DNA from: Lachnospiraceae bacterium
GTDB lineage: Bacteria; Bacillota; Clostridia; Lachnospirales; Lachnospiraceae
Length of the DNA: 58,312 nucleotides
Assembly (NCBI GenBank): GCA_017622795.1
Contig: JAGAQI010000118.1
Location: 1-58,312 of the forward strand
Direction of reading: 5' to 3'
Positions 7,974 to 38,707 of this stretch are shown here, one piece after another. The notes under the pieces are model-generated. The model ran no database searches, was not told where the DNA came from, and saw nothing but the letters and a program-made list of their open reading frames with translations. Position 1 is the first letter of the stretch; each line of letters starts with the position of its first letter. Made by a program: the position numbers and the translations under genes.

Positions 7974-8130
7974 GCAAGAGGATAACCTCTTGCGGAAGAA
8001 TTACTCTACTGACAAATCCTAGGTTGTTCGAAAGAGGAAGTCTTCCAAAAACTATTAAACCAAAAAGTGATTCCCGAAAGGACTCGGGAACCGGACGGGC
8101 GAACCCGTACCGGACACAATTCAAGGAGGT
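7974..8130 (+). promoter_or_regulatory. Structured flagellin 1 leader with GGA-loop hairpin and strong RBS
   Basis: Three hairpins lie in the leader. The 5'-proximal one is GCAAGAGG/CCTCTTGC (7974-7993) with an ATAA loop. The second is TTCCCGA/TCGGGAA (8071-8090) with loop AAGGAC, an exposed GGA as in CsrA sites. The third spans 8091-8113 with a CGAA loop. AAGGAGGT (8123-8130) precedes the ATG at 8138. In B. subtilis CsrA represses hag by binding one upstream hairpin and the Shine-Dalgarno; the layout here matches, but CsrA binding is inference. Confidence 0.6.
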
Positions 8131-13298: not shown

Positions 13299-13326
13299 TA
13301 ATAAATACAAGTTTTTTGGCCGATAT
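13299..13326 (+). promoter_or_regulatory. SigD-like promoter of the tandem glycosyltransferase
   Basis: An exact SigD minus-10 GCCGATAT lies at 13319-13326. The minus-35 is less clear: TAAT at 16-base spacing (13299-13302) or TAAA at 13-base spacing (13302-13305). Start codon GTG lies 42 bases downstream. Confidence 0.65.
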
Positions 13327-16123: not shown

Positions 16124-16150
16124 TATATTTCAAGGAGAAACAGCCGATAT
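16124..16150 (+). promoter_or_regulatory. SigD-like promoter of the glycan island
   Basis: TATA (16124-16127), 15 bases, exact GCCGATAT (16143-16150), 56 bases before the ATG of the first island gene. It is the only recognisable promoter before the 22-kb co-directional cluster and ties that cluster to flagellar regulation. Confidence 0.75.
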
Positions 16151-16205: not shown

Positions 16206-17597
16206 ATGCGAAAGGCACAAAAGAAGCAAATTGAAGAACTGATTACATTGATGGCAGAAGCCCAGGAGGAGATAAAAAATGCCATCCGGAAAAAGAATAT
16301 TTCACTTGCGCTTGACCTTTTAGAGCAGTGCCAGCAGGCGGCCATTCAGGTGGGAACCTCCATTGATGCGCTGGAAGGGGAAGGCCATCCGGCAGTAACA
16401 CTGTTGGAGCAATACTGCGAGCTGGTGTATAAGCTTCATGAAGAACTGGCAAGCGGTGCGCTCAAGGCAGGGGCGGATGCGGCAGCCTATGCAGAGCAAA
16501 AGCTTACCGGTCTGTGGAAGCAGATTAACAAGAGCGTGGAAGAAGATATTCCGGGACGCTTGGAAGTGGTGTTCTGCCCGTATAAGGCTTCTATGTGGGA
16601 CTCTTTAGAGAGTGTATGGAAGGCTGCAGACGAGGACCCGAACTGTGACGCATACGTAATTCCGATTCCTTACTTTGATAAGAAACCGGACGGCAGCTTT
16701 GGCGAAGAGCATTATGAGGGCTTAGAATATCCGGAGTATGTGCCAATCACCTATTATAAAAGCTATAATTTTGAGGAGCGCCGCCCGGATATTGTATTTA
16801 TCCACAATCCGTACGATGAGTATAATTTTGTTACCAGCGTGCATCCGTTTTTTTACGCTAGTAACTTGAATAAATACACCGACAAGCTGGTGTACATTCC
16901 GTACTTTGTGCTGGGTGAGCCGGACTGGGCAACCATGTCGGAAAAAAGCAAAGAAAAGATGCGTATGTTCTGCATTCAGCAGGGCGTATTGCAGTCTCAC
17001 AATACTATTGTGCAGTCGGAGACAATGAAAAAAGTATATGTGGAAACTCTTTGTGAGGAATTTGGCAAGCATCTCCGCCCAATGTGGGAGGATAAAATAC
17101 TGCCATTAGGTTCTCCGAAATTTGATAAAGTAACCGGTACCGCAGAGGATGAGTTAAAGGTTCCGGAAGAATGGAAGCCGGTAATCTACAGAGCAGATGG
17201 CAGCAGAAAGCAAATTATCCTTTACAATACCGGAGTGTCAGCCTTGCTGGACTATAGCGAAACAATGCTGGAGAAAATGAAGGATGTGTTCCGGGTTTTT
17301 TACGAGAAACGGGAAGAAGCAGCACTGTTGTGGCGCCCGCATCCGCTGGTTAAGGCTACCATTGAATCGATGCGTCCGAAATTATGGAAAGCGTACGAAA
17401 AGCTCGTGAAGGAGTACAGGGAAGCAGCCTGGGGTATTTACGATGATACACCGGATTTGAACAGGGCCATTGCACTGGCGGATGCATATTATGGGGATCC
17501 GAGCTCCCTGACACGCTTGTGCAGGGAAAAAGGAATTCCGGTGATGGTGCAGAATGTGGATGTGTTACATGAATGGAAGAAGGAAACGGATCTATGA
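16206..17597 (+). CDS. CDP-glycerol/ribitol phosphotransferase-like GT-B protein
   Basis: A 463-aa protein with an N-terminal helical region (about residues 1-115, containing GEGHPAVTLLEQYCELVY) and a C-terminal GT-B-like region resembling CDP-glycerol glycerophosphotransferases (TagB/TagF, TarL). Visible marks are VVFCPYKASMWDSLESVW, the mid-chain LPLGSPKFD, and the donor-side LLWRPHPL with a late YGDPSSL. No membrane segment is seen. With TarI/TarJ homologues downstream, a CDP-polyol is the likely donor. The stop codon overlaps the next start (ATGA). GGAGG precedes the ATG. Specificity is inference. Confidence 0.75.
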   Translation: MRKAQKKQIEELITLMAEAQEEIKNAIRKKNISLALDLLEQCQQAAIQVGTSIDALEGEGHPAVTLLEQYCELVYKLHEELASGALKAGADAAAYAEQKLTGLWKQINKSVEEDIPGRLEVVFCPYKASMWDSLESVWKAADEDPNCDAYVIPIPYFDKKPDGSFGEEHYEGLEYPEYVPITYYKSYNFEERRPDIVFIHNPYDEYNFVTSVHPFFYASNLNKYTDKLVYIPYFVLGEPDWATMSEKSKEKMRMFCIQQGVLQSHNTIVQSETMKKVYVETLCEEFGKHLRPMWEDKILPLGSPKFDKVTGTAEDELKVPEEWKPVIYRADGSRKQIILYNTGVSALLDYSETMLEKMKDVFRVFYEKREEAALLWRPHPLVKATIESMRPKLWKAYEKLVKEYREAAWGIYDDTPDLNRAIALADAYYGDPSSLTRLCREKGIPVMVQNVDVLHEWKKETDL

Positions 17598-18769
17598 TAA
17601 AGGACGGAAGATGTTTTTTTGAAACATTTGTACAAAAGGATGATAAGATTTATACTACCAGCATGGAATCCAATGGCTTATTTGTTTTGGGACCGGATGC
17701 ACAGGCAAGACTTATTGCACTTTTTCCTTTGGAAGAGCTTTGCAAACATTATCTTTTTACAGACAGCAAATGTTATGAAAATCAAATTATTTTTGCCCCG
17801 GGTTCTGCAGAACATATCCACATTTATGATACGGAAACCGGGCAGTTTGAAACAATAGAGTTTGATTTGGAAACAAATCAAAAGAGTTATAATCCGCTAT
17901 TTAAATGTTCGCGGATTATTGAGACGAAAGAGTATTTTTTCTTTATGCCGAATACATATCCATATATTTTAAGACTGGATAAAGAATTAAAACAGCTAAA
18001 ATACATTGAATTTGAGTTGCCGGAACAGAAAGTTTTATTTGGAAATCAATATGTAAAGCATGGTAATGATATATATATGGTTTCTAGGCGTTCGCCGGAT
18101 ATTCTTAAATTTAATGTACAAAATGAAACCGCAGAAATATTGACGTTTTCGCAGGATAAAACCGGTGGAATGAGTATACATATGGTGGGGGAGCGTTTAT
18201 GGGTAACTTCTTCTACGAAATCGGAAGTGTATGAGATAAATCCTTTCGAAGTGTCTCAGGTACAGATTCACAAGGAAGTGCCGGAAGCTTTTGCGGTAAG
18301 GGAAGGAGAACTCCCTTTTGCATGCAGTTTTATAAGAGACGAAAAGTTGGTTTTAGTCCCTATGGGAGGAAATTTATTCCTGGAGTTTGACTGTGAAAAA
18401 AAGGAATTTGCAATCAACCGGGATTTAGAATTTGATTTGCAGGATATGAATTTAGCATGTATGTACCAAAACGAAGAGACCGTAGCTCTTTGCAGACGCC
18501 CGGAAGACTTGTGGAAAAGCTTTCGGAATCAGGTGTTTTTGGATATAAAGAAAATGACGGCAACAGAAGTTGTTTTTAAAATCCAGGAACCGGAGAAATA
18601 CGGCAGAACATTACTTGCCGGTAAACTGGAAAGTGATGAGATAATAAAAGAAACCATGCTGACAGATATCAGGGACTTTATGGAATCAGCCGGTAACAGA
18701 CCGGCTTTTGCAAAGAAAAACGATATGGGTAGTTCAGGAGAAACGATATACAGATATTTATGCAACTAA
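17594..18769 (+). CDS. Predicted beta-propeller-like protein, unknown function
   Basis: A 391-aa soluble protein with no signal peptide. It is dominated by repeated short beta segments of the form (D/N)xIYxxS...NGLFxLxP, HIHIYDTETGQFETIEFD, YILRLDKELKQLKYIEFELP and SEVYEINPFEVSQVQIH, as in six- or seven-bladed propellers. It has no enzymatic motif that I recognise. Translation starts at ATG 17594, overlapping the upstream stop, so the two proteins are likely coupled and may interact. A longer frame from 17573 lies inside the upstream gene. A 77-base gap follows before the licD gene. Confidence 0.65.
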   Translation: MIKDGRCFFETFVQKDDKIYTTSMESNGLFVLGPDAQARLIALFPLEELCKHYLFTDSKCYENQIIFAPGSAEHIHIYDTETGQFETIEFDLETNQKSYNPLFKCSRIIETKEYFFFMPNTYPYILRLDKELKQLKYIEFELPEQKVLFGNQYVKHGNDIYMVSRRSPDILKFNVQNETAEILTFSQDKTGGMSIHMVGERLWVTSSTKSEVYEINPFEVSQVQIHKEVPEAFAVREGELPFACSFIRDEKLVLVPMGGNLFLEFDCEKKEFAINRDLEFDLQDMNLACMYQNEETVALCRRPEDLWKSFRNQVFLDIKKMTATEVVFKIQEPEKYGRTLLAGKLESDEIIKETMLTDIRDFMESAGNRPAFAKKNDMGSSGETIYRYLCN

Positions 18770-18846
18770 CAGTAAACACAGAAATGTAATTCGATACTCA
18801 TCGAGAGTGATACCATTGGATTAGTGTAGACAGAAGGAGATTTATA

Positions 18847-19740
18847 ATGGCAAAAACAGAAATAATTCTTTCAGCAGAACAACTTAGAAAGCTTCAGCTG
18901 GAACAGCTGGAACTATTAAAAGAAGTGGACAGAATCTGCCGGAAAAACAATATTCCGTATTACATCACCGGAGGCACCATGCTGGGGGCTGTCAGACATA
19001 AAGGATTTATTCCGTGGGATGATGATATTGATGTCAGCATGCTCCGGAAAGATTATCACAGATTTTGTGTGGCATGCGGAAAGGATCTTGATACAAACCG
19101 GTTTTTCCTTCAGACCTGGGACACGGACAAGCACTACCGGTACCAGTACGGAAGACTGAGAAGGAATAACACGCTTTATATCCGTTCGGGTCATGAAGAT
19201 GCAAAGCATCATAACGGAATCAATATAGATTTATTCCCGGTGGATAATGTGCCGGACAACAGAATTCTTTGCAGAATCTATAAAACCGGTTGCGAAGTAT
19301 TCAGAAAAACCTTGTATTCACCGGTAGGAGCGGTCAGAACCACGGCACCGGTTCCAAAGCTGATGTATCGGTTTTTAAGCAGCTTTGACGGAGAAAAGGT
19401 TAAAGTTTGGTTCAAAAACTGGATTAAGTTTTTTGGTAAATTTCCTTCTTCCAGAGTGGACGCAGTTGGTTTTGCCTACAGACTTTCTACGGCAGATAAA
19501 GAAAAACTGGGAAAAGAAAATTACTATGAAATGTATCATGGAATGAAACGGGAGCTTGTTACAGAGCTTACGGAATATTCCTTTGAAGGTTTGAAGTTTT
19601 ACGGTGTTAAGGATTATGACTATTATCTCAGAACGCTTTATGGAGACTATATGACACCGCCTCCTGCAGATAAACGTACCGGAGAGCATAAAGCGGTTGC
19701 AATTAAATTTTCTGACGAAGGGGAAAATAAAAATGAGTAA
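18847..19740 (+). CDS. licD: LicD family phosphotransferase
   Basis: LicD proteins move a phosphorylated group from a CDP-activated donor to a glycan (phosphocholine in Haemophilus and pneumococcus; ribitol-phosphate in the related human fukutin and FKRP). This 297-aa protein has the signature GGTMLGAVRHKGFIPWDDD at about residues 40-58 and the late LYGDYMTPPP. GGAGA precedes the ATG. The 3' end overlaps the next start. With CDP-ribitol and phosphonate-activating enzymes in the operon, no choline-specific gene (licA/licB) is present, so phosphocholine is unlikely as the donor group. Confidence 0.9.
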   Translation: MAKTEIILSAEQLRKLQLEQLELLKEVDRICRKNNIPYYITGGTMLGAVRHKGFIPWDDDIDVSMLRKDYHRFCVACGKDLDTNRFFLQTWDTDKHYRYQYGRLRRNNTLYIRSGHEDAKHHNGINIDLFPVDNVPDNRILCRIYKTGCEVFRKTLYSPVGAVRTTAPVPKLMYRFLSSFDGEKVKVWFKNWIKFFGKFPSSRVDAVGFAYRLSTADKEKLGKENYYEMYHGMKRELVTELTEYSFEGLKFYGVKDYDYYLRTLYGDYMTPPPADKRTGEHKAVAIKFSDEGENKNE

Positions 19741-20389
19741 TATCCGTAATGTGGGTGTAATTCTATCCGGCGGAAGAGGTGTCCGCGCCGGACATGGTCT
19801 CCCGAAACAATATCATAAAGTATGCGGAAAAATGATTATAGAATATGTGATAGAGGCATTTAAGCAATCTGCGCAAACAGATGTAATTCTTGTTGCGGCA
19901 GAGCCGGGTTACTTTGAGGAATTAAAAGCGATTGGATGTATTTGCGTGGAAGGCGGAAGGGAAAGAAATGAAACGGTCCGTAATGTAATCAATTATGTGA
20001 AAGAAAACCTTTCGGAGTGTGAAAAAATTCTGTTTCACGATTCTGCAAGACCACAGATTACTCCACAGTATATCGATGAGTGCTTTGAACTTTTAGAAAA
20101 TCATGACAGCGTGATTACAACGGCACATATTACGGACAGCCTGAGTCACAGAGAATTTGGCCCGGTGGAACGCAGTGAGTACTATCTGATTCAGACACCG
20201 GAAGCATTTCAGTTTGGAATTTTGGAGAAGCATTTTACAAAAGAATCTGAGTGGACGGCTATAGTACAGCAGCTGCCTTCCGGAGCAGATGTTTATCTGA
20301 ACTATAACCTGGCAAAGAACATGAAAATAACTTATCCGGAGGATTTCGGATATTTTCAAATGCTTGTGGAAGGAGGGTATCTTAAATGA
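19733..20389 (+). CDS. IspD/TarI-like cytidylyltransferase A
   Basis: A 218-aa nucleotidyltransferase with SGGRGVRAGHGLPKQY (residues about 10-25, nucleotide-binding loop) and FHDSARP, both hallmarks of the IspD/TarI fold. It may activate a polyol phosphate with CTP. The frame opens at 19697, but ATG at 19733, overlapping the licD stop with an AAGGGG ribosome site, is the logical start. It overlaps the next gene by ATGA. It is less TarI-like than cytidylyltransferase B and could act on another alcohol phosphate. A MEP-pathway role is unlikely from the context. Confidence 0.8.
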   Translation: MSNIRNVGVILSGGRGVRAGHGLPKQYHKVCGKMIIEYVIEAFKQSAQTDVILVAAEPGYFEELKAIGCICVEGGRERNETVRNVINYVKENLSECEKILFHDSARPQITPQYIDECFELLENHDSVITTAHITDSLSHREFGPVERSEYYLIQTPEAFQFGILEKHFTKESEWTAIVQQLPSGADVYLNYNLAKNMKITYPEDFGYFQMLVEGGYLK

Positions 20390-21102
20390 TATATGCAAGT
20401 ATTCTTGCGGCTGGAGCAGCAGAGAAAGATGATAAACGGACGTTACCACGGCCGTATACCCTTCTGGGAAACAAACCGATTCTTATCCATACCCTGGAGC
20501 AGTTTGCCATATCATCAAAGATTGATAAAATCATTATTGTGGCAAACAGTGACTGGGTGGTTTATACACAGGAGCTGGTTAAAAAAAGCATTCCATTTGC
20601 AAAGGAAATACATGTAATCCGTGGTGGCGAAAATAAAAACCGGTCTATTTCCATGGCAGCGAAATATATTGAAGAAACCTGGGGGGTAACGGAAGAGGAT
20701 ATTCTTCTGAACCATGACGCAATCCGTCCGTTCATTTCCCAAAGGATTATTGAAGATAACATTGAGGCAGGGAAACGATATTCGGTTGCAAATACGGTGA
20801 TGCCTACGGTAGATACCATTGTGATATCGGAGGATAAACAGACCGCAGACAGTATTCCGCCAAAGAGCAGAATGTATTCTGAACAGACTCCGCAAACATT
20901 TCAGCTGAAACAATTTTTGGATACCTATTACTCTCTTCCGGAAGAGGTGTTTGAGAAAGAAAACGATTCGGTCCGTTTTATGCTGAATCACGGACATGAG
21001 GTTTATCTGGTTGCCGGAGATTATTCCAATATAAAAATTGTTACTGCATTTGATGTGGAAGTGGCAAATGCTTTTCTTAGGAGAATGGAGCATGATAAAT
21101 AA
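20386..21102 (+). CDS. tarI: IspD/TarI-like cytidylyltransferase B (probable ribitol-5-phosphate cytidylyltransferase)
   Basis: A 238-aa second member of the IspD/TarI family. The loop is altered (LAAGAAEKDDKRTLPRPY in place of the usual GxGxRMGxxxPKQ), while LNHDAIRPF and YSEQTPQTFQLKQF are kept. Its gene overlaps the TarJ-like gene, the order found in tarIJL operons, so production of CDP-ribitol is the best guess. The missing Gly/Arg in the CTP loop is a caution: A and B might function as a heteromer or one may be a pseudo-enzyme. Confidence 0.72.
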   Translation: MIYASILAAGAAEKDDKRTLPRPYTLLGNKPILIHTLEQFAISSKIDKIIIVANSDWVVYTQELVKKSIPFAKEIHVIRGGENKNRSISMAAKYIEETWGVTEEDILLNHDAIRPFISQRIIEDNIEAGKRYSVANTVMPTVDTIVISEDKQTADSIPPKSRMYSEQTPQTFQLKQFLDTYYSLPEEVFEKENDSVRFMLNHGHEVYLVAGDYSNIKIVTAFDVEVANAFLRRMEHDK

Positions 21103-22114
21103 AATTGTAAGACTGGTCGGGGTAAAACAGTTTGATGTGTATTATGAAGAATTACCGCTCTCTTCCGATAAGCTGGTAATACGACCGGAGTATCTGTCTA
21201 TCTGCGCGGCGGATCTCCGATATTATACCGGACAGCGGAACCGGGAGGCGTTAAAGAAAAAACTGCCGCTTTCCCTGATTCATGAAGCGACCGGAACCGT
21301 ACTTTATGATCCGCTTGGGCGGCTCGAAGCAGGAAGCAAGGTTGTTATGATACCAAATACATATTCCTCCGAATCGGATTTCATCAAAGGTAATTATCAA
21401 AAAAACAGCTGTTTCCGTTCCAGTGATATCGACGGTTTTATGCAGGATTATGTGCTTTGCGATTATGACCGGGTAATACCACTCCGCAAAGGGGAAGTTG
21501 ATGAAATTTATGTTTTGAGTGAACTTATCAGTACTTCCGTCAATGCCGTTTCAAACAGTATTCTTCATATGCAGGGAGCTTGCCGCCGGATAGGAATCTG
21601 GGGAGACGGAAATTTAGGATTTACCACAATGATTACGGTAAGAAGCCTTTTGCCGGATGCGGAAATCATTATATTTGGTCATAATGTCAGAAAATCACTC
21701 AATTTTATTATGGCAGATAAAGTTTACAATACGGAAAATATTCCTTCTGATATGGAATTGGATTGTGCATTTGAATGTGTTGGTGGTGTAAACAGTGTAC
21801 ATGCCATCCGACAGAGTATTGAGCTTGTACGTCCGCAGGGTTGTATTTCCCTTTTGGGAGTATCGGAAGAGCCGGTACCGATTGATACAAGGCAAGTACT
21901 TTCGAAGGGACTGAGTCTTCTTGGGAACAGCAGAAGTGAACGCTGTGACTTTGAAACAGCAATTGGTATTATCAGGGAGCATGATGAGTTCAAAACATAT
22001 CTTGGAACCATTATTTCCGAACGAAAAAAGGTAAAAATGATTTCTGATATTTATTATGCGTTTGAACATGCGCAGATTAATGACTTTAAAACAATAATGA
22101 AGTGGGAGATGTAA
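21092..22114 (+). CDS. tarJ: TarJ-like ribulose-5-phosphate reductase
   Basis: A 340-aa MDR-superfamily dehydrogenase close to TarJ, which reduces D-ribulose 5-phosphate to D-ribitol 5-phosphate with NADPH. Shared blocks are VIRPEYLSICAADLRYYTG, LPLSLIHEATGTVLYDP, GSKVVMIPNTY, FRSSDIDGFMQDYV and the cofactor loop GIWGDGNLGF. The frame extends upstream, but MINKIVRLV at 21092 has GGAG in front and matches the family start. It overlaps the preceding gene by 11 bases. Together with gene B it supplies CDP-ribitol. Confidence 0.88.
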   Translation: MINKIVRLVGVKQFDVYYEELPLSSDKLVIRPEYLSICAADLRYYTGQRNREALKKKLPLSLIHEATGTVLYDPLGRLEAGSKVVMIPNTYSSESDFIKGNYQKNSCFRSSDIDGFMQDYVLCDYDRVIPLRKGEVDEIYVLSELISTSVNAVSNSILHMQGACRRIGIWGDGNLGFTTMITVRSLLPDAEIIIFGHNVRKSLNFIMADKVYNTENIPSDMELDCAFECVGGVNSVHAIRQSIELVRPQGCISLLGVSEEPVPIDTRQVLSKGLSLLGNSRSERCDFETAIGIIREHDEFKTYLGTIISERKKVKMISDIYYAFEHAQINDFKTIMKWEM

Positions 22115-22117
22115 AGG

Positions 22118-23329
22118 ATGTATGATGTGAAGGTAAAAAGTCTGCTCCCGGGTCTTTACAGTGACCTCGATGCATTGATGGAACAAGGAGCTCTTTTAAA
22201 GAAAAACATTTATGTATTCGGAAAAGGAATCTGGGGCTTTGCGGTTACACAGTATCTTCACACAAAGGGATACGATGTCACAGGTGTTTTGGATAATAAT
22301 CTGCAAATACCCAATTGGGGATTGTTGTCTTCTATATCTGTTATTTCGGATCCGGAGTATAAGGTAAAATTTTATTATCCGGAAGATGCATTGAAAGAGT
22401 TTGATGATAATGCATTGGTGTTAATCAGTTCAAAATTTTATGATGCACAATCAGCGCAACTGATGGAATTAGGTTATGAAGAGGGTAAGCACTTTATTAA
22501 GCTTGACAGAATAAACCGTATTCCGGAAGAGAAAAAACCGGAAAATATTACAGAACTCGATTCGGAAAGTATAAAAGAATATTTATTTGATTTGCTGAAG
22601 TTTTTGAAAAAAATATGTGAAGAAAACGGATTAACCTATTATCTGGTAGGAGGCACATTGCTTGGTGCCGTGCGTCACAAAGGAATTATTCCGTGGGATG
22701 ATGATATTGATATTTCCATGCCGCTAAAAGACTATATGAAACTTCACGAGATTTTTAGGGAGCATGATTATTCGTTTGGCAAGTATTCCCTGTACAGCAT
22801 GGTAGACGATGAGAATTGTATGTACGCTTATGCCAAGCTTTTAAATACCAATACACTTCTGCATTTGGAAAAGTATCCGATGGATGTAATAACCCATGTA
22901 TGTATCGATATATTTCCTCTTTCCGGTGCACCGCTTCCGGAGGAAAGTGAAAGCAAATGTTTTATAGAAGACCTGAACAAATTTAATTCCGCATGGATGA
23001 AATACCGGTCTTATATCGGGATGGATGTGTATCCGTTTGAGGAACGGAGAGAAAAATGGTGGGAGCTCCTGAACCGGTATGATTATGATACCAGTTCCGG
23101 AATCAGTTATATTTTTGCGGAAGGAAGAAACTTCCGTGTACTTGACAGACGGTTATACGACCATGTTGTTGAGGTGGAATATGAGGGAGAGTTCTTTCCG
23201 ACGATGTCCGGATATAAGGAATATTTGGAAACAGCTTATGGCGATTATATGACACTTCCTGCAAACTGGCAGCGGTTTGGAAAGCACTCTTATATGGATT
23301 GCTGGGTAGACAATTCTTTGGAAAAATAA
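22118..23329 (+). CDS. licD: LicD family phosphotransferase with N-terminal Rossmann-like module
   Basis: A 403-aa protein. Residues about 25-130 form a Rossmann-like module (NIYVFGKGIWGFAVTQYL, VTGVLDNNLQ, ALVLISSKFYDAQSAQL). The LicD domain follows from about 150, with GAVRHKGIIPWDDDID near 190-205 and LETAYGDYMTLP near the end. It is the second LicD of the operon and differs from the first by carrying this module, which recurs in eight other proteins of the island. It lies three bases after tarJ. Two LicDs fit transfer of two different or two successive phospho-groups. Confidence 0.88.
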   Translation: MYDVKVKSLLPGLYSDLDALMEQGALLKKNIYVFGKGIWGFAVTQYLHTKGYDVTGVLDNNLQIPNWGLLSSISVISDPEYKVKFYYPEDALKEFDDNALVLISSKFYDAQSAQLMELGYEEGKHFIKLDRINRIPEEKKPENITELDSESIKEYLFDLLKFLKKICEENGLTYYLVGGTLLGAVRHKGIIPWDDDIDISMPLKDYMKLHEIFREHDYSFGKYSLYSMVDDENCMYAYAKLLNTNTLLHLEKYPMDVITHVCIDIFPLSGAPLPEESESKCFIEDLNKFNSAWMKYRSYIGMDVYPFEERREKWWELLNRYDYDTSSGISYIFAEGRNFRVLDRRLYDHVVEVEYEGEFFPTMSGYKEYLETAYGDYMTLPANWQRFGKHSYMDCWVDNSLEK

Positions 23330-23344
23330 AAAAGGGATGATAAA

Positions 23345-25351: not shown

Positions 25352-25352
25352 A

Positions 25353-26474: not shown

Positions 26475-26477
26475 AAC

Positions 26478-27599: not shown

Positions 27600-27613
27600 G
27601 AGACGAAAGAGCC

Positions 27614-28771: not shown

Positions 28772-28784
28772 AGGAGATGTAAAA

Positions 28785-29939: not shown

Positions 29940-29956
29940 GTCAGGAGGAATCGATA

Positions 29957-31132: not shown

Positions 31133-31165
31133 GGATGTACAGAGTTTGACAGGGGGAATGTGAGG

Positions 31166-32635
31166 ATGAAAGAAAAAAATACAGTGGGTGTTGTTGGAAT
31201 ATGGAGTGGGATGAACTATGGAACGCAATTGACTTTTTATGCGTTGTATCAGGTTTTGACAGAAGAAAACTTTCAGGTTACTTTACTAGAGGAATCTTCG
31301 AAAATAACAGTTCCGGAAGAAACACCAGCACCGGGATTATTTCGTGAAAATCCTTATCCTGCACAGTCTTTTGTGAAAGCAAATCTGGTTCAGATGAAGG
31401 AATTTAATGAAAAATGTGATTCTTTTGTGGTGGGCTCGGATCAGCTATGGCGGTATCGTTTTTTTAAAAAACTGATAGATGTAAATATATTATCGTTTGT
31501 TTCTGCAGATAAAAGAAAAATAGCTTATGCCACATCCTTTGGAGAAAAGGAATTCCGGGCGCCAATAGAGCGGACTGAAAAAATGCGGTTTTTTTTAAAA
31601 AGATTTCATAAAATTTCGGTGAGGGAACAATCCGGTGTGGAACTGTGTAGAAATACTTTTGATGTGGAGGCAGAATGGGTGTTGGATCCGGTTTTTCTTT
31701 GTAATATCCGACATTATAGTGCATTTGCAGAAAAGTCCAGGTCAATTGTTGATGAGCCGTTTGTATTTGTATATATTGTTCATCCTTCGGAAGAAAAAAG
31801 AATATTTGTAGAAAAAATTGTTTCTTGTATGGGGAAGAAAGCGGTTTTTGTGCGAAATTTACATGCAGTGGATACCTATGACGGCTGGACTGTTCCGTTT
31901 GAACCGGATTGTAAGATAGAAGAGTGGTTGTATTACATTAAAAATTGCGACAGAGTTATAACCGATTCCTTTCATGCATTTTGCTTTTCTGTTATTTTTA
32001 ATAAGCAGATATTGCCGTTATTTCAAACGGTAGATGGTTCGGACAGCGCAGAACGGATATTTTCTCTGACAGGTCTTTTAGGAATTGAAGCCCCGGAAAC
32101 TATGGAACATTTGGATGTTGAAGCGTATTGCAGGGGAGAAAAAGACATTAATTATGATGAGCCTAATAAGAGATTAGATGCGGAACGAATCCGATGCAGG
32201 AAATGGTTGTTAGATGCTTTAAAAACTGAAGTTACATACGATAAAACTGATTTGCTGTGGGATGTGTTGCGACCGGAAATTTATAAAGTGCAGGAAATGA
32301 AGCAATTGTTGGAAGAGCAGCAAAAAGAAATAAATCGTTTAAAATATGCCAATCGGAATATTGTGTTATTTGGTGCGGGCAATATATTGCAAAAGCATGG
32401 TCGGACCATACTTGATAATATAAATGTGTGTGCTGTTGTGGACAATAATCCGGAAAAATGGGGTGCATCTTATGAAGGAATAATTTGTACAAAACCGGAA
32501 ACTTTACGGACGTTGGACAATCCGTATGTTCTGATAACGGTAAAGAATGAAGCACTAATAAAATCAATTTGTACGCAGCTGGAAAATATGGGAATAAAAG
32601 ATGTAGCGCTTCTTTCTGAATGGCTGACGGTGTAA
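31166..32635 (+). CDS. Polysaccharide pyruvyl transferase family protein with C-terminal Rossmann-like module
   Basis: A 489-aa protein. Residues about 1-330 match the pyruvyl transferase fold: VGVVGIWSGMNYGTQLTFYALY, SFVVGSDQLWRYRF, IAYATSFGE, WVLDPVFL and ITDSFHAFCFSVIF. The family adds pyruvate ketals to sugars using PEP. A helical linker (EEQQKEINRLKYANRN) leads to the module (NIVLFGAGNILQKHG...VVDNNPEKWG). The same linker-module tail occurs in the next gene. ATG at 31166 with AGGGGG is preferred to the GTG at 31160. It contains a T8 run at 31589-31596. Confidence 0.82.
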   Translation: MKEKNTVGVVGIWSGMNYGTQLTFYALYQVLTEENFQVTLLEESSKITVPEETPAPGLFRENPYPAQSFVKANLVQMKEFNEKCDSFVVGSDQLWRYRFFKKLIDVNILSFVSADKRKIAYATSFGEKEFRAPIERTEKMRFFLKRFHKISVREQSGVELCRNTFDVEAEWVLDPVFLCNIRHYSAFAEKSRSIVDEPFVFVYIVHPSEEKRIFVEKIVSCMGKKAVFVRNLHAVDTYDGWTVPFEPDCKIEEWLYYIKNCDRVITDSFHAFCFSVIFNKQILPLFQTVDGSDSAERIFSLTGLLGIEAPETMEHLDVEAYCRGEKDINYDEPNKRLDAERIRCRKWLLDALKTEVTYDKTDLLWDVLRPEIYKVQEMKQLLEEQQKEINRLKYANRNIVLFGAGNILQKHGRTILDNINVCAVVDNNPEKWGASYEGIICTKPETLRTLDNPYVLITVKNEALIKSICTQLENMGIKDVALLSEWLTV

Positions 32636-32666
32636 AAAGTAAGTGTAAAGACAAGGAGAGGAAAGA

Positions 32667-34163
32667 ATGTTTAAGTTAAGTAATTTACGAAAAGAAAGTA
32701 AAGCAGGATGGACCTATCTTTGCTGTGACTTTGAGGTAACCGGCATGGACAATCCATTTAAGGAAAATACTATGTGGGTTGCAGTAGAAGATATAAATGA
32801 AGACATGCTTTCTGAAAAAGTATTTGATCCGTTTGTGTTGATTCCGGTATATTTGGGAATGCATTATGGACAGGATGTGCATATTGAGGGAAATGTTTCT
32901 GCGCGGTTGTATCATAATGTAACGCATTATTTGATGAGTATTTTTGATAATTTTTCTGTTCATACAAGAATGGTTAAATTTACGGTAAATGGTTTTGATA
33001 CCGTGGAAGAAAGTAATGTTAAATTAATTGGTACTGGTATTTCTTGTGGAGTAGATTCACTTACAACAATTTATGATAATTATATTTTAGAGGAACACTC
33101 TGACTATAAGATTAATAGTTTGTTTTTTGCAAATTGTGGAACACATGGGAACTATAATAAAGAATCGAGACAGTTATGGCTGGATAGGGCAACAATGAAT
33201 CGTAAGGCGGCAGAGGAATTAAATCTGCCGATGTATCTGATAGATTCTAATTTGCATGCGTATTCTCACGTGTTTGGTACAGATCAAAAGATTGGATATT
33301 TAGCAATTTATTCCTGTGCATTGGCAATGCAAAAATATGTGAAACGGTATTTGACATCGGGAAATTTTAGTTATGAAGAAGTGGCTGAATTTGCGACAAA
33401 CTCCAAAGATTATGATATTGCAGAATATTGTGAAACATATATGCCGCATTTGATTTCTACAGAGCGTTTTGAGTTGGTAATTGATGGTTGTCAGTATACA
33501 AGAGGAGAGAAAACAGAAAGAATTAGTAATTGGGAAATTGCACAAAAATATTTAAATATATGTGTAAATCCGATTAATCATGGAAAAAATTGTTCTAAGT
33601 GCCATAAGTGTATGTGGACGTTAATTCCATTGGAAGCAATGGGAAAACTAGAGGAATTTAACCAGGTGTTTGATATAGATACTTACAATAAAAATGCTCG
33701 GCGCTGGAAACTCTCTTTTTTATCTCACGAAGGAAAAGATGCTATGGAAACCTCCGTTGTACGATATGCAAGAAATCATAATCTGAAGTTTCCATCTCTG
33801 GATGAGGCAAATGAAATTTTGTTGCTGAAAGAGGAAATCGCACAACAACGGCGTGAAATAAATCACTTAAAATACAATAATAACAATATTGTAATATTTG
33901 GCGCGGGAGAGGTTTTGAAAAAGAATATACGAGATATAAGCGATAAGATGAAAATCAGAGCAATTGTCGATAGCGATTCTAAAAAATGGGGAAGGTGTTA
34001 TGGCGATTTTGTATGCGAAAGTCCTGAACGGCTGCAAGAGATTGAAAATCCACTAATTCTGGTATCTGTTGCAAATAAACGAATCGTTAGAGAAATAGAA
34101 GAAAATTTAGTAGATAAAGGATTTCAAAATATTCTTCGTCTTACAGAATGGATAGATATATAA
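32667..34163 (+). CDS. PP-loop-like protein with Cys motif and C-terminal Rossmann-like module
   Basis: A 498-aa protein. Near residue 115-122 is GISCGVDSLT, resembling the pyrophosphatase loop SxGxDS of ATP-dependent adenylating enzymes (asparagine synthase, QueC, ThiI types). Near 305-315 is CSKCHKC, probably a zinc site. The C-terminal linker (QQRREINHLKY) and module (NIVIFGAGEVLKKN, AIVDSDSKKWG) mirror the preceding protein. Activation of a carboxylate or thio-group transfer is possible, but no function is assigned. It overlaps the next open frame and is AT-rich. Confidence 0.7.
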   Translation: MFKLSNLRKESKAGWTYLCCDFEVTGMDNPFKENTMWVAVEDINEDMLSEKVFDPFVLIPVYLGMHYGQDVHIEGNVSARLYHNVTHYLMSIFDNFSVHTRMVKFTVNGFDTVEESNVKLIGTGISCGVDSLTTIYDNYILEEHSDYKINSLFFANCGTHGNYNKESRQLWLDRATMNRKAAEELNLPMYLIDSNLHAYSHVFGTDQKIGYLAIYSCALAMQKYVKRYLTSGNFSYEEVAEFATNSKDYDIAEYCETYMPHLISTERFELVIDGCQYTRGEKTERISNWEIAQKYLNICVNPINHGKNCSKCHKCMWTLIPLEAMGKLEEFNQVFDIDTYNKNARRWKLSFLSHEGKDAMETSVVRYARNHNLKFPSLDEANEILLLKEEIAQQRREINHLKYNNNNIVIFGAGEVLKKNIRDISDKMKIRAIVDSDSKKWGRCYGDFVCESPERLQEIENPLILVSVANKRIVREIEENLVDKGFQNILRLTEWIDI

Positions 34164-34186
34164 AAACTGTTTTGGGAGGAATGGAG

Positions 34187-35695
34187 ATGAACTATTTATC
34201 TGAATTTCCGCAATTGGGTTTCGGAGTGATGAGACTTCCTTATTTGGATGATAAAATTGACATGGAAAAAGCGCAGGCGATTGTAGATGAATACATGAAA
34301 GGCGATTTTTGCTATTTTGATATGCATCCTTCGTACATGGGAAAGCAAGCAGAGGAATTGGTGAGAGAATTCGTGGTAAAAAGATACCCTAGGGATTCTT
34401 ATCTGCTAGCGGATAAAATGCCGCTTAACATAAAAGAATTTGCTGATTACGGAAAATATTTTAATGCTTCACAGACCGTCTGTGGTGTTTCTTATTTTGA
34501 TTTTTATTTATTACATGCAATCACAAGAGATGTTTATGAAAGGCATGAACGGCTTGGTGGTTTTAGATATATGCAAGACCTGAAAGAGCAGGGAGTAGTC
34601 CGTTATATTGGATTTTCGTTTCATGATAAACCGGAATTATTGGATGAGATATTAACGAAGCATCCGGAAATGGATTTTGTACAATTGCAGATTAACTATT
34701 TGGATTGGGAAAGTCCGGTAATTTGTTCTAAGAAATGTTATGAAATTGCACGAAAGCATAGCAAACCTATTTTTGTAATGGAACCAATTAAAGGAGGAAG
34801 CCTGGCAAACAAAACGGATTCCTTGCAAGAGGATGAAAAACTTGGTGCATCGGATTTGGCAGAGCTTGCTTTAAAATTTGTTGCATCGCTTCCGGGAATA
34901 ACTGTTATTTTAAGTGGGATGTCAGAAGTGGGACATGTAATAGACAATCGTAAAACCCTTTTAAAAGTTGGAGAGTTGAATGAAAGAGAGCGTCAGCTAA
35001 TTCAAAACCTTAGAGAAAAGATAACAAAAGTAAATAAAATCCAATGTACTGCTTGTGGATACTGTATGGAGGATTGTCCACAAAGAATTCCAATACCGAG
35101 TATTCTCGCGTTGCTGAATGCGTGTGGAAAGAACGGTGAAACGCTGCAGGTATATCCGTACCAAAAACGTATTTACAGCGGTTATGTGTTTAACAAAGGA
35201 ACTGCAGGAAGCTGTATTAAATGTGGGAAATGCGAGAATCGTTGTCCGCAAAAATTACCGATTCGCGAGTATTTAGCACAAGCTGCTTCCTTGTTTGAGA
35301 AAAGCCCGACGGAAGTTAAGCTGCAACGTGCTACATACAAGTATCGTACTTTACGGGATTGGATGAAGGTGCTTCAATCCGGAAATTCGCTGGAACCCTA
35401 TTTTAAATATAAAGGTTTTGGTGTAATGGCAGTGTACGGAATTGGAGAAATCGGAGAATTGCTGATACAGGAAATTAAGAACTATAAAACAGTTCGTATA
35501 GAATATGGTATCGATAAAAAGGCAAAAATACTAGTGAAAGATATTCCACTAGTTGAACCGGATGACGTTTTGCAAGAGGTTGATGTTGTTGTAGTTACTC
35601 CGACCTTTGATTTTGAAAATATTGAAAGGCAGTTACGTAGTAAAATAAATTGTCCGATAGTATCCTTAGATGAGATTATAAAGTGGTGCTTATAA
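34187..35695 (+). CDS. Aldo/keto reductase with ferredoxin domain and C-terminal Rossmann-like module
   Basis: A 502-aa three-part protein. Residues about 1-270 are an aldo/keto reductase barrel (LGFGVMRLPYLDD, DFYLLHAI, RYIGFSFHDKPE, VMEPIKGGSLA). Two 4Fe-4S motifs follow, CTACGYCMEDCPQ near 287-299 and CIKCGKCENRCPQ near 343-355. The module closes the protein (VMAVYGIGEIGELLI, EYGIDKKAK, VDVVVVTPTFD). ATG at 34187 lies 8 bases after GGGAGGA; ATG at 34181 is too close. Reduction of a sugar or keto-acid intermediate with ferredoxin-linked electrons is a reasonable guess. Confidence 0.85.
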   Translation: MNYLSEFPQLGFGVMRLPYLDDKIDMEKAQAIVDEYMKGDFCYFDMHPSYMGKQAEELVREFVVKRYPRDSYLLADKMPLNIKEFADYGKYFNASQTVCGVSYFDFYLLHAITRDVYERHERLGGFRYMQDLKEQGVVRYIGFSFHDKPELLDEILTKHPEMDFVQLQINYLDWESPVICSKKCYEIARKHSKPIFVMEPIKGGSLANKTDSLQEDEKLGASDLAELALKFVASLPGITVILSGMSEVGHVIDNRKTLLKVGELNERERQLIQNLREKITKVNKIQCTACGYCMEDCPQRIPIPSILALLNACGKNGETLQVYPYQKRIYSGYVFNKGTAGSCIKCGKCENRCPQKLPIREYLAQAASLFEKSPTEVKLQRATYKYRTLRDWMKVLQSGNSLEPYFKYKGFGVMAVYGIGEIGELLIQEIKNYKTVRIEYGIDKKAKILVKDIPLVEPDDVLQEVDVVVVTPTFDFENIERQLRSKINCPIVSLDEIIKWCL

Positions 35696-35733
35696 CAGGA
35701 GTAAGAACAACAAGCGAATGGGGGAAATTGAAG

Positions 35734-37689
35734 ATGCAGGTAGTATTGTATGGTTCCGGGGAAAAAGGACAGGAAATGTGTCGGAACTTTTCTCAATATT
35801 TTAATGAAGAAGAATATAAGCTTTTGGGATTTTTGGATAGTAATCCGGAAAAACTGGGTCAGCTTATTCTTGGAAAACCGGTACTGCCACTGGAAAAAAT
35901 CAAGGGAATAGAAGACATATTAATCGTTATTACCATTGCTTCTAAAAAAGCAAAGGAAGAAGTAAAGGAACGATTAGAGAGAGAAGGTCTGGCTGATAAA
36001 GTATTTTCCTTTCATGGTCCTGCAAACGGTTTTTATTCCAACGAGAAAAACGTTCAGATTTTACTTGCTCTTTTGAAAGCACATGGAATCAGAAAAATTA
36101 TTGCAAGTCCGGGAACTACCAATATGTGTTTCGTAGCCAGTATGCAAAGAGATTCGTTCTTCCATATTATTTCTGCACCGGATGAGCGTTCTGCGGCTTA
36201 TATGGCATGCGGTCTGGCAAAAGAAAGCGGAGAGCCGGTAGTTCTCAGCTGTACCGGAGCTACCGCATCGCGTAATTATTTGCCCGGATTGACAGAAGCT
36301 TATTACAGCAAACTTCCGGTATTGGCGGTTACTTCCTGCCAGCATCTTGGCAGAGTGGGACAGCTTTCTCCTCAGGTAATTGATCGTTCTGCTCCGCCTG
36401 CAGACACAGTAAAATATAGCGCTATCCTTGACTGCGTACATAGTGAAGAAGATGCGTGGGATTGCGAAACAAAGATAAACACAGCCTTGTTAGAACTGAA
36501 AAGGAACGGCGGCGGACCGGTACATCTTAATTTAGCAACAACGTACAGCAGATATTTTACACAGAAAAATTTACCGGCTGTGCAATGTATGGAACGATAT
36601 ACCTTGGGTATAGGTGAGACATTGCCCGATTTAACACCCGGCAGAGTTGGTATTTTTGTTGGCGCACATAAAAAGTGGAGTGCGTCATTAACAGAGGCAG
36701 TGGATCTTTTTTGCGAAAAATATGACGCAGTTGTATTTTGTGACCATACCAGTAATTATTGGGGGAAATACCGTGTGCTTCCTGCGCTTGTTTGCCATCA
36801 GGAAGGATGTTCTTCGTCTGCTCGTAAAATGGATGTAATGCTTCATATCGGAGAGGTAAGTGGTTCTTATACTACAATGAAGCCAAAGGAGATTTGGCGT
36901 ATCAGTCCGGATGGAGAAATAAGAGATGCTTTTAAAAAGCTCCGCTATGTTTTTGAAATGGAAGAACAATCTTTTTTTACAACATATCTGAAAAAAGAAA
37001 CATTAAAGACAACAAAAAATACATATTATGAGGAATGGATAAAGGAACAGGAAGATATGTTGAAACATATTCCGGAACTTCCTTTTTCAAACCTTTGGGT
37101 GGCACAGCAGACAAGTGGTAAATTGCCACAAAACAGTATATTGCATTTGGGAATTTTGAATACACTCCGTTCCTGGAATTTTTTTGAAGTAACAAAGGGA
37201 CTTCATAGTCATGCTAATACTGGTGGCTTTGGTATTGATGGATGTGTATCTACTGCCATAGGGGCATCTTTGGCATGTCCGGAAAAATTAGTGTTTTGCT
37301 TTGTGGGTGACCTGGCATTTTTTTACGATATGAATGTTTTAGGAAATCGTCATATAGGTAGAAACCTCAGATTGCTTTTGATTAACAATGGTTGTGGCAC
37401 GGAATTTCATAATTATAATCATCCGGCAGCGGTTTTGAACTTAAATGAGCAGCCGTATTTGGCCGCGGATGGACATTATGGAAACAAATCTTCTGACCTG
37501 GTGCGTCACTATGCGCAGGACCTTGGCTTTGAGTATATGAGTGCAGGTAATAAAGAGGAATATTTGTCCTGTTTAGAAAGATTTGTTTCAGCTGAGTTAT
37601 TGGAAAAGCCACTGATATTTGAGGTGTTTACAGACGAAGAAACGGAAAGCGAGGCACTTTATAGGATGAAGCACTTGATAAAGAAATAA
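35734..37689 (+). CDS. ThDP-dependent enzyme with N-terminal Rossmann-like module
   Basis: A 651-aa protein. Residues 1 to about 95 are the module (QVVLYGSGEKGQEMCRNF, LGFLDSNPEKLG). The rest is a MenD/acetolactate-synthase-like ThDP enzyme: GIRKIIASPGTTN, APDERSAAYMACGLA (containing the conserved Glu), SCTGATASRNYLPGLTEAYY, and a C-terminal cofactor half with LVFCFVGDLAFFYDMNVLG...INNGCG. A frame from 35683 overlaps the previous gene; GGGGGA before 35734 supports the later start. It could make or ligate a keto-intermediate for the glycan; the substrate is unknown. It is clearly distinct from the phosphonopyruvate decarboxylase. Confidence 0.82.
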   Translation: MQVVLYGSGEKGQEMCRNFSQYFNEEEYKLLGFLDSNPEKLGQLILGKPVLPLEKIKGIEDILIVITIASKKAKEEVKERLEREGLADKVFSFHGPANGFYSNEKNVQILLALLKAHGIRKIIASPGTTNMCFVASMQRDSFFHIISAPDERSAAYMACGLAKESGEPVVLSCTGATASRNYLPGLTEAYYSKLPVLAVTSCQHLGRVGQLSPQVIDRSAPPADTVKYSAILDCVHSEEDAWDCETKINTALLELKRNGGGPVHLNLATTYSRYFTQKNLPAVQCMERYTLGIGETLPDLTPGRVGIFVGAHKKWSASLTEAVDLFCEKYDAVVFCDHTSNYWGKYRVLPALVCHQEGCSSSARKMDVMLHIGEVSGSYTTMKPKEIWRISPDGEIRDAFKKLRYVFEMEEQSFFTTYLKKETLKTTKNTYYEEWIKEQEDMLKHIPELPFSNLWVAQQTSGKLPQNSILHLGILNTLRSWNFFEVTKGLHSHANTGGFGIDGCVSTAIGASLACPEKLVFCFVGDLAFFYDMNVLGNRHIGRNLRLLLINNGCGTEFHNYNHPAAVLNLNEQPYLAADGHYGNKSSDLVRHYAQDLGFEYMSAGNKEEYLSCLERFVSAELLEKPLIFEVFTDEETESEALYRMKHLIKK

Positions 37690-37708
37690 GTAGGTGTGAG
37701 AGGTAGAC

Positions 37709-38707
37709 ATGAAAGTTGATAATTTTGTATCTCTGGGTTCAGCTTGTCCGGTTGCAGCATCGATGAGCAAATATGGTTTTCGTGGTTTTTCCGGTGTTTT
37801 TGATTGGCTGGTTACAGAGAGCTTACAAGGAGTTCTTTATTATTTGGAACATGATTTTGCAGGATTTCTGGAAAAGGATAATCTGGAGCTTTATGAAGGT
37901 AATCCGAAAAAATTTTCAGATAAAAGTAACGGATTTATTTTCTTGCACGAACAGGTTTCCTTTCAGGAAGAATACGAATTGTTGAGGGATAATTATCAGA
38001 GAAAGATAGATCGCTTTTTGTGGGAAATTTGTAAGCCAACCTGCTTTTTGCGTGCCGTGAGTTCGAAGGAAGAAATAGAGTATATAGTTAATAATCAGAA
38101 GTATATTGATAAGGTAATAAAAAAGAATAATGTCAATAATCAGATAGTATTTTTAATCAAAGAAGGAATAGAAGTTAAAGCACTGCCATTTCCGTTTTTT
38201 ATTATGAGCAACCCGTGGGTTGGGCAACCTCATTCTTTGTTACGTGGTTGGTTTGACGAACAAAAAGAGTTTTTAGAATTTTGTGCAGAACGTTATGATT
38301 CAGTAAGAATGATTCAGAATATGATGTTTGATAATCAGGCAGAGAAGAAAAAATATCAAACTTTGGAAATGAATGATAAGCGTTATAAACTTCTATTAAA
38401 GTTACTAAACACAGACATAAATAAAATTCGACTGCCACGTAAGGTTATCCTATATGGAGCAGGAAATATCGGAAAACAGTGTTATGAAATGATAAAGAAT
38501 AACTGTGAAGTAATAGCATTTGTGGATAAAAGTAAAGCGGGAACGGTAATTGATGCGGTTCCGGTTTTGGATATTTCGGAAGCTGTGCTTTATAGAGACA
38601 TACCATATATTATAACAGTGGTCTATGATTATGATAACATTTGTAAGGAGATTCTGGAGGGGGATGAAACGGCGCAGATAATTTCCTTACAAGAGATTAT
38701 CAAATAA
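37709..38707 (+). CDS. DUF1796 family protein with C-terminal Rossmann-like module
   Basis: A 332-aa protein. The N-terminal half starts VSLGSACPVAASMSKYGFR and FSGVFDWLVTESL, the hallmark of DUF1796, a family described as putative cysteine peptidases and often encoded with glycosyltransferases. Residues about 240-332 are the module (RKVILYGAGNIGKQCYEMI, VIAFVDKSKAG, ISLQEIIK). It is the last gene of the operon and ends before a strong bidirectional terminator. Its role in glycan assembly is unknown. Confidence 0.78.
   Translation: MKVDNFVSLGSACPVAASMSKYGFRGFSGVFDWLVTESLQGVLYYLEHDFAGFLEKDNLELYEGNPKKFSDKSNGFIFLHEQVSFQEEYELLRDNYQRKIDRFLWEICKPTCFLRAVSSKEEIEYIVNNQKYIDKVIKKNNVNNQIVFLIKEGIEVKALPFPFFIMSNPWVGQPHSLLRGWFDEQKEFLEFCAERYDSVRMIQNMMFDNQAEKKKYQTLEMNDKRYKLLLKLLNTDINKIRLPRKVILYGAGNIGKQCYEMIKNNCEVIAFVDKSKAGTVIDAVPVLDISEAVLYRDIPYIITVVYDYDNICKEILEGDETAQIISLQEIIK

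Follow-up and report, generated by a model that had tools for sequence, protein, structure and literature searches.

Where does a bacterium place a phosphonate whose predicted biosynthetic genes lie directly behind its flagellin genes? The question is raised by a stretch of DNA of 58,312 nt from a Lachnospiraceae bacterium (assembly GCA_017622795.1, contig JAGAQI010000118.1; a draft genome, 86.6% complete), referred to here as the window. Directly downstream of two flagellin genes, the window contains a run of genes (13368-38707), all in one orientation, that includes predicted genes for 2-hydroxyethylphosphonate (HEP) and CDP-ribitol. The gene content, the integrity of the domains, the HEP-type cassette and the recurrent placement of such cassettes at flagellin genes without multi-pass membrane genes are all supported by the observations described below. 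We regard it as rather probable that the run is an island for the modification of flagellin in the cytoplasm, by which HEP becomes linked to this protein. The genes that bear on this reading are the following (GT2, glycosyltransferase family 2; ORF, open reading frame; PEP, phosphoenolpyruvate):

8138..9763, + strand: flagellin 1 (PF00669 E 2.5e-47, PF00700 E 1.4e-28; ATG at 8138 read from the sequence, the ORF as listed opening with TTG at 8024)
11591..13204, + strand: flagellin 2 (PF00669 E 1.9e-47, PF00700 E 9.2e-31)
13368..16028, + strand: double GT2 protein with a C-terminal helical module, candidate flagellin glycosyltransferase (PF00535; SunS peptide S-glycosyltransferase model E 2.3e-24, below cut-off; relative beside flagellins in G288)
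16206..17597, + strand: TagF/TarL-like putative CDP-polyol transferase with an N-terminal four-helix module (profile-profile alignment and predicted fold)
17573..18769, + strand: ORF2, function unassigned (no Pfam or NCBIfam match)
18847..19740, + strand: LicD1, candidate phosphonate or polyol-phosphate transferase (PF04991 E 1e-44, 153.8 bits, cut-off 22.6)
19697..20389, + strand: IspD-like cytidylyltransferase (PF01128 E 3.8e-28)
20386..21102, + strand: TarI, ribitol-5-phosphate cytidylyltransferase (NF001183 255.4 bits, cut-off 166)
21038..22114, homology from about 21092, + strand: TarJ, ribulose-5-phosphate reductase (S. aureus 6xh9 E 2.9e-85, residues 19-358)
22118..23329, + strand: LicD2 with an N-terminal Rossmann-like stretch, seen in the translation (PF04991 E 8e-38, 131.2 bits, cut-off 22.6)
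23345..25351, + strand: triple fusion of a LicC/PntC-like domain, a Fom1-like HEP cytidylyltransferase and PEP mutase (PF12804, PF01467, PF13714; TIGR02320; 5x3d)
25353..26474, + strand: Fe-alcohol dehydrogenase (FeADH), probable phosphonoacetaldehyde reductase (PF00465; conserved cassette)
26478..27599, + strand: phosphonopyruvate decarboxylase (TIGR03297 473.9 bits, cut-off 312.5)
27614..28771, + strand: GT2 (PF00535 E 9.3e-40)
28764..29939, + strand: GT2, 67% identical to the preceding GT2 (PF00535)

The original prediction had described a tightly spaced, co-directional gene set beginning at 16206. All the genes that it named are present in one orientation, with intergenic spacing from −65 to +77 nt between 16206 and 38707, but the run begins further upstream, at 13368, with the double-GT2 gene. 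The TarI/TarJ-like enzymes, the PEP mutase, the phosphonopyruvate decarboxylase, the two LicD transferases and the GT2 enzymes were all recovered at the scores given above, as were two domains able to activate a phosphonate with CMP, one LicC-like and one Fom1-like with a match to 5x3d.

The fusion protein comprises the LicC/PntC-like domain (residues 1 to about 230), the Fom1-like cytidylyltransferase (CyTase) domain (237-361) and the PEP mutase domain (385-667), all of which appear intact. The PEP mutase domain contains the EDKX5NS motif (EDKVGLKKNS) and scores 398 bits with TIGR02320 (cut-off 319.6), and the Fom1-like domain contains the HxGH motif (HSGH) and aligns over 125 residues with the solved domain 5x3d (E 3.2e-38), which we take to be Fom1, the database entry reading phosphoenolpyruvate phosphomutase. 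The LicC-like domain matches PF12804 (E 2.8e-10), and its residues K23, D108 and D221, presumably catalytic, are invariant in 13 sequences. Across an alignment of 13 full-length fusions, the motif residues of each of the three domains are the same in all 13; because an earlier set of 13 other fusions had been selected in part by the EDK and HxGH motifs, the invariance refers to this separate alignment, which was unselected by motif.

Which phosphonate would this cassette produce? For the phosphonoacetaldehyde reductase that the original prediction had named, a gene of the Fe-alcohol dehydrogenase family is present and its role is assigned from the conserved cassette, but it scores only 128.3 bits with the phosphonate equivalog TIGR03405 (cut-off 423.7), which speaks against the assignment. 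This low score would suit an alternative in which the phosphonate is not HEP, being either 2-aminoethylphosphonate (AEP) or a product processed by the radical SAM, thiamine diphosphate (ThDP) or aldo/keto reductase enzymes of the island. The six unexplained genes that follow point the same way, as does the resemblance of the LicC-like first domain to AEP-activating PntC enzymes, as these are described in the accessible text of Rice et al. (PMC6697681). Against this alternative, none of the island genes scanned with Pfam and NCBIfam models matched an aminotransferase, and the CyTase domain has its match in Fom1, which acts on HEP. With our own hidden Markov models (HMMs), FeADH was found at 78 of the 84 triple-fusion loci and an AEP transaminase at two (one contig being counted twice, G022 = L124). 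Of the 21 loci with a double fusion, that is, without a LicC-like domain in the same ORF, 11 carry an AEP transaminase and 3 carry FeADH, and NCBIfam models confirm three of the transaminases. Since the window has FeADH and no aminotransferase match, and since the triple fusion goes with FeADH, the gene content supports HEP rather than AEP as the predicted product, and a different phosphonate is unlikely. The HEP specificity of the Fom1-like domain and the AEP specificity of the LicC-like domain are predictions made at the level of sequence.

A LicC-like ORF lies near the PEP mutase in 16 of the 21 double-fusion loci, and therefore two cytidylyltransferases per PEP mutase are usual, the LicC-like and Fom1-like kinds in most cases accompanying it either fused or nearby. 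At G163 and G391 a second CyTase-like ORF was seen instead of a nearby LicC-like ORF. Altogether, curated models and the conservation of both motifs and cassette support the predicted chemistry, with synthesis of CDP-ribitol and activation of HEP to CMP-HEP.

The second question is whether the proximity to flagellin genes recurs. Of 40 flagellated carriers, 10 have the PEP mutase no more than 35 kb from a flagellin, where random placement would give about 1.6 (a count this high was reached in 0 of 200,000 simulations). Within 20 kb there are 9 (1.0 expected), and within 10 kb there are 3 (0.5 expected, P 0.016); as the flagellin positions were taken from the matches listed, and genomes without a listed flagellin contributed nothing to the random expectation, both observed and expected linkage are probably low and the expectation is rough. 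With the window excluded, linkage within 35 kb is found in 9 of 39. Eight named genomes entered this count, some of which may be close kin of the family genomes, and the single duplicate noticed (G022/L124) was removed. In the same-genus genome G288, the same locus is present, with three flagellins, GT2, a TagF-like gene and an IspD-like gene, and has no PEP mutase match; therefore, the phosphonate genes appear to be a variable cassette at a conserved flagellin locus. The TagF-like gene itself lies within 25 kb of a flagellin in at least 29 of 76 genomes (76 of the 84 TagF-like carriers were compared, the flagellin search having covered 79 of the 84 and G188). Thus, as in a glycosylation island, the glycan genes of the window adjoin flagellin, are co-directional and are kept in relatives.

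The organization of the linked loci varies. In G443 (Lachnospiraceae bacterium 3-1, L198), the HEP cassette lies in a co-directional run between two flagellins, together with genes for NeuB and for MptE-like proteins, which we take to be Maf flagellin glycosyltransferases. In G139, the cassette comes after FliD, two flagellins, two MptE-like genes, NeuA- and NeuB-like genes and LicD, with all of which it is co-directional, and in G022 it is preceded, over about 33 kb, by flagellin, GT2, TagF-like, LicD, PF04464-type, IspD and two MptE-like genes. The cassette of G188 lies beside FliD, FliS, flagellin and two MptE-like genes on the opposite strand, and that of G427 shares its orientation with the flagellin and the one unknown ORF upstream of it. 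Of the double fusions, G157 (L071/L215) combines FliD, FliS, flagellin, an MptE-like gene and NeuB with AEP transaminase, PEP mutase and decarboxylase, and G135 (L067/L113) has AEP transaminase and decarboxylase on the strand opposite to flagellin. In G177 (L213), the PEP mutase comes shortly after two flagellins and is followed by two LicD genes; no transaminase, FeADH or decarboxylase was detected there or in G315 (L111/L112). The flagellin-glycosylation markers MptE-like/Maf and NeuB are found in the independent islands of G188, G139, G443 and G157, and an MptE-like gene in that of G022.

In a FastTree phylogeny of 83 triple fusions, the six flagellin-linked fusions require 5 state changes, 4 of them forced by starred branches; this is a quick tree that does not separate gains from losses, and with shuffled labels as few changes sufficed in 57 of 500 cases. 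The distribution fits an origin of flagellin linkage by repeated recruitment.

If a glycan is transferred to flagellin before export, no flippase or polymerase is expected in such an island. ORFs with at least 7 membrane segments, counted by plain Kyte-Doolittle, occur within about 10 kb of the PEP mutase at 0 of 10 flagellin-linked loci (six of the HEP type and four double fusions) versus 42 of 54 other loci, all triple fusions (Fisher p 4e-6). These controls were the 80 named loci minus 3 flagellin-linked ones and 23 with fewer than 12 ORFs, a filter that was not applied to the flagellin-linked G427 (11 ORFs, at a contig end). In eight flagellar islands, 0 of 153 ORFs have 4 or more membrane segments, while non-flagellar double-fusion loci have a multi-pass ORF in 9 of 12 cases. 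In the window, no multi-pass flippase or polymerase was found among 17 ORFs of at least 150 aa within about 10 kb of the PEP mutase, nor among the 19 ORFs of the island. The lack of flippase and polymerase genes therefore fits glycan transfer to flagellin in the cytoplasm. Linkage, missing multi-pass membrane proteins and the G288 locus lend comparative support to flagellin as the acceptor, which had been predicted originally from gene position and a promoter alone, but the acceptor itself we infer.

How far the cassette belongs to flagella at all can be judged from its wider occurrence. The fusion or a part of it is present in 46 of 397 family genomes (flanks were surveyed in 31 of the other 45 PEP-mutase genomes), and the scan of named genomes gave, as the best 80 loci, loci from Clostridia, Erysipelotrichaceae and Bacteroidales. 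A LicD gene lies within about 10 kb in 33 of these 80 and a PF04464-type gene in 12; because the ORFs of fetched loci were called by a simple longest-first procedure, the HMM counts in these loci are lower bounds. The flagellin search among the named genomes covered 50 of the 80 loci, all from Bacillota, with Bacteroidales outside its range, and gave a flagellin match in 9 of the 49 named Bacillota genomes with a triple fusion. Specificity of the cassette for flagella was rejected, most copies not being known to be flagellin-linked. In view of the LicD and PF04464-type neighbours and the few flagellin matches, the HEP cassette is mainly a surface-polymer cassette.

These figures bring in a further alternative, namely that the HEP cassette of the window, and CDP-ribitol with it, serves another surface polymer such as a teichoic acid, a capsule or a glycolipid, and that the flagellin genes are adjacent by chance. 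Several findings weigh against a flagellar destination. For 30 of the 40 flagellated carriers, no flagellin is seen on the contig of the PEP mutase at up to 35 kb from it, although contig breaks and incomplete listing of flagellins may hide some; 40 of the 49 named Bacillota genomes have no flagellin match, many of them being incomplete metagenome-assembled genomes (MAGs). PEP mutase and flagellin are encoded on different strands in G188 and G135. No MptE-like/Maf protein (PF01973) was found in 30 scanned ORFs of the window, and the ORFs examined at the flagellin-linked loci G188, G443, G427, G157, G135 and G315 showed no LicD, so that LicD is doubtful as a universal phosphonate transferase. 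Moreover, the window genome contains a further LicD pair (C106) and five TagF-type proteins (C102). The multi-pass membrane ORFs at 42 of the 54 triple-fusion loci, together with the LicD and PF04464-type counts, would also suit a polymer of this kind. On the other hand, linkage to flagellin amounts to some six times what is roughly expected at random and is scattered over the tree, the island has no multi-pass membrane protein, and SigD-like elements head the run. Taken together, we consider chance adjacency improbable, and modification of flagellin with HEP remains the preferred reading.

The SigD-like elements in question are the following:

13302..13326, + strand: SigD-like element before the double-GT2 gene (TAAA, GCCGATAT; consensus match only)
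16143..16150, + strand: SigD-like −10 element GCCGATAT before the TagF-like gene (consensus match only)

We take GCCGATAT to be the consensus −10 element of SigD promoters. Exact copies are rare, with three in the window on both strands (5398, 13319 and 16143), of which two lie 48-62 bp upstream of the double-GT2 and TagF-like genes; the two flagellin genes of the window are preceded by ACCGATAT and TCCGATAT, and two of the three G288 flagellins by CCGATA. Two looser patterns were discarded: TAAA-N13-17-CGATAT was not significant (3 matches versus a mean of 1.0, 8 of 100 shuffles being as high), and CCGATAT is common, with 21 matches in the window. The SigD-like promoter of the original prediction thus holds as a consensus match before both leading genes, but CCGATA is absent upstream of the third flagellin, the GT2 gene and the TagF-like gene of G288 and within 400 bp of the G000:C83 flagellin, that is, at one flagellin per genome, and these absences speak against such a promoter.

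Does CDP-ribitol go to the same place as HEP? Of the two IspD-family genes in the run, one alone reaches the TarI level. The other was considered as the housekeeping IspD and rejected, a stronger IspD being encoded at C91 (208 bits). TarJ has a single match in the draft genome (threshold E 1e-15) and none in five other genomes searched, four of which have a flagellin-linked HEP cassette. Scanning of the 80 named loci and of unnamed neighbourhoods gave no other TarJ beside a phosphonate cassette. As the combination was seen only in the window, joint use of HEP and ribitol lacks comparative support, and this counts against it. A third alternative is that flagellin is modified but that HEP and ribitol phosphate end up at different places, or that CDP-ribitol is destined for another polymer; two LicD proteins and a TagF-like protein would allow for two acceptors. 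Several features argue in the other direction: in a single compact run, the genes for TarI and TarJ are flanked by the two LicD genes and precede the fusion, the draft genome has no other TarJ match, and the TagF-rich locus C102 has a TagD-like protein of its own (128 aa, a CyTase HMM match, named TagD by eye). Because TarJ occurs once in the genome and C102 has this protein, the CDP-ribitol made by the island genes is, on the gene inventory, most simply used at the island; absence of a second TarJ is not certain, because the genome is an incomplete draft. We hold separate destinations to be a realistic possibility, though short of even, and rate the presence of HEP and ribitol on one glycan lower than flagellin-linked HEP.

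C102 is of interest in its own right. At G000:C102:13840-41499 (L211, L212), homologues of FliD and FliS and FlgK/FlgL-like proteins are encoded next to a TagD-like gene and five genes of the TagF type on the same strand, the labels TagD and FlgK having been assigned by eye, which makes the locus another candidate for a connection between polyol phosphate and flagella. Dependence of C102 on the TarI and TarJ of the island was rejected, as it carries its own TagD-like protein.

The CDP-polyol-transferase-like protein of the original prediction proved to be a remote case. It has no Pfam match, PF04464 included, but its family, in an alignment of 18 of 29 fetched relatives, matches PF04464-type proteins in an HHalign profile-profile comparison at 97.2%, and TagF and TarL are among the matches of its predicted fold, with UDP-GlcNAc 2-epimerases scoring slightly higher; a search of the PDB with the family profile found nothing. 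The four-helix module at its N-terminus is shared with the C-terminus of the double-GT2 protein. A FliS-like nature of the module was rejected for want of similarity between the sequence profiles (0.4% against a profile of 5 FliS sequences), and its structural matches were designed four-helix bundles, which are little informative.

A scheme for the island can be proposed on these grounds, in which we infer the enzyme specificities, the pairing of donors with transferases, and the joint use on one glycan. PEP mutase, the decarboxylase and the Fe-dehydrogenase would convert phosphoenolpyruvate to HEP, which the Fom1-like domain of the fusion would turn into CMP-HEP with CTP, and TarJ and TarI would yield CDP-ribitol. 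The double GT2 protein may start a glycan on flagellin that the other GT2 enzymes extend, LicD1, LicD2 and the TagF-like protein would add HEP and ribitol phosphate to it, and the decorated flagellin would then be exported by the flagellar secretion system.

Ribitol or HEP chemistry does not account for the last six genes of the run:

29957..31132, + strand: radical SAM/SPASM protein (PF04055, PF13186)
31160..32635, + strand: polysaccharide pyruvyl transferase family (PF04230)
32667..34163, + strand: 498-aa protein with its C-terminal third in common with the pyruvyl transferase (no Pfam match)
34148..35695, + strand: aldo/keto reductase with a 4Fe-4S domain (PF00248 and Fer4 families)
35683..37689, + strand: MenD-like ThDP enzyme with an N-terminal CoA-binding-type Rossmann domain (PF02776; TIGR00173 168 bits, below the cut-off of 244)
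37709..38707, + strand: DUF1796 protein with a weak PglD-like end, final gene of the run (PF08795; PF17836 below cut-off)

With its radical SAM/SPASM protein, MenD-like enzyme, Fe-S aldo/keto reductase and two proteins of poorly defined function, this final section suggests a building block of unknown nature, either a sugar or an acyl group. An appended Rossmann-like module recurs in the region 22118-38707, with BLAST joining both GT2s, the pyruvyl transferase, the 498-aa protein, the aldo/keto reductase, the ThDP enzyme and the DUF1796 protein; by eye, the N-terminus of LicD2 resembles it. The island is closed by a gene on the opposite strand (38777-42019, −), whose 1080-aa product ends in a nucleotidyltransferase of the citrate-lyase-ligase type (PF08218) and matches ILEI weakly. 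Accessory genes like those of the window were seen in L175, a Lachnospiraceae MAG whose HEP locus contains two LicD genes, IspD, radical SAM, two Fe-S aldo/keto reductase-like ORFs and a relative of the 498-aa protein, with no flagellin match on its contig.

A secreted, antibiotic-like small phosphonate would be another destination, and Fom1 is indeed part of fosfomycin biosynthesis, as stated in the accessible text of Rice et al. (PMC6697681). The island has, however, no multi-pass membrane protein, it encodes LicD, TagF-like and GT2 enzymes, and its radical SAM protein carries a SPASM domain but gave no Pfam match for B12 binding. We consider such a product very improbable.

How does the island compare with known systems? 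Hensbergen et al. (2022) described 2-AEP on the type A glycan of the flagellin (FliC) of C. difficile, carried by a small proportion of the glycan, and a genome survey cited in the same paper found no pepM in C. difficile, leaving the source of AEP open (PMC8861647). Phosphonate-bearing flagellin is thus less unusual than originally predicted. Both systems would place a phosphonate on a flagellin glycan, in the window as judged from the genes alone; C. difficile has AEP without a known source, whereas the window has a whole predicted HEP pathway in the island, together with CDP-ribitol genes. Fusions of PEP mutase to LicC-like and/or Fom1-like cytidylyltransferases were described by Rice et al. 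(2019; PMC6697681), whose accessible text gives triple fusions as 42 of 1485 Ppm proteins, identifies the Fom1 domain as a HEP cytidylyltransferase, and reports LicD-like proteins or glycosyltransferases near characterised PntCs; the string 'flagell' does not occur in the main text. The fusion type is the same here, and the difference is that part of the family lies in flagellin islands. Fom1 of the fosfomycin pathway shares the order of CyTase and PEP mutase and, by prediction, the activation of HEP, and the window fusion adds the N-terminal LicC-like domain and the LicD and glycosyltransferase neighbours. In comparison with the ribitol teichoic acid genes of S. aureus, the window has homologues of TarI and TarJ and a TagF-like protein with TarL among its fold matches, but the set lies at flagellin, and the TagF-like family is remote and has the four-helix N-terminal module. 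The MptE-like(Maf)/NeuB islands also have glycan genes after flagellin, and the HEP cassette occurs with flagellin and MptE-like genes in G022, G188, G139 and G443; in the window a double GT2 and a TagF-like protein were found instead of an MptE-like/Maf protein.

For marine organisms, phosphonylated cell-surface glycoproteins have been proposed, according to the accessible text of one study (PMC8931226). A phosphonate flagellin pathway in Pelobacter carbinolicus was considered as prior art and rejected, the accessible parts of the literature treating the two topics separately. Among the top-ranked titles and abstract openings found, none reported a phosphonate pathway inside a flagellin island, subscription literature being mostly outside this search. 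Thus, the pathway families and the triple fusion are already known and phosphonate on flagellin has a precedent; a dedicated, complete predicted pathway, placed more than once in flagellin islands without multi-pass membrane genes, appears to be the new element.

In a wider reading, gut Clostridia would repeatedly have recruited HEP-type and AEP-type pathways into flagellin islands, giving phosphonate-ester flagella, and the window species would have a teichoic-acid-like flagellin glycan with ribitol phosphate and HEP. We offer this reading tentatively, as somewhat more likely to be wrong than right. Flagellin is a major immune ligand. The predicted genetic source of phosphonate in flagellin loci of Lachnospiraceae makes a question of the kind raised by C. 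difficile testable. If the proposal is true, phosphonate tailoring would include, besides polysaccharides and lipids, a protein on the surface of gut commensals, and such bacteria could supply the phosphonate seen on the flagellin of C. difficile.

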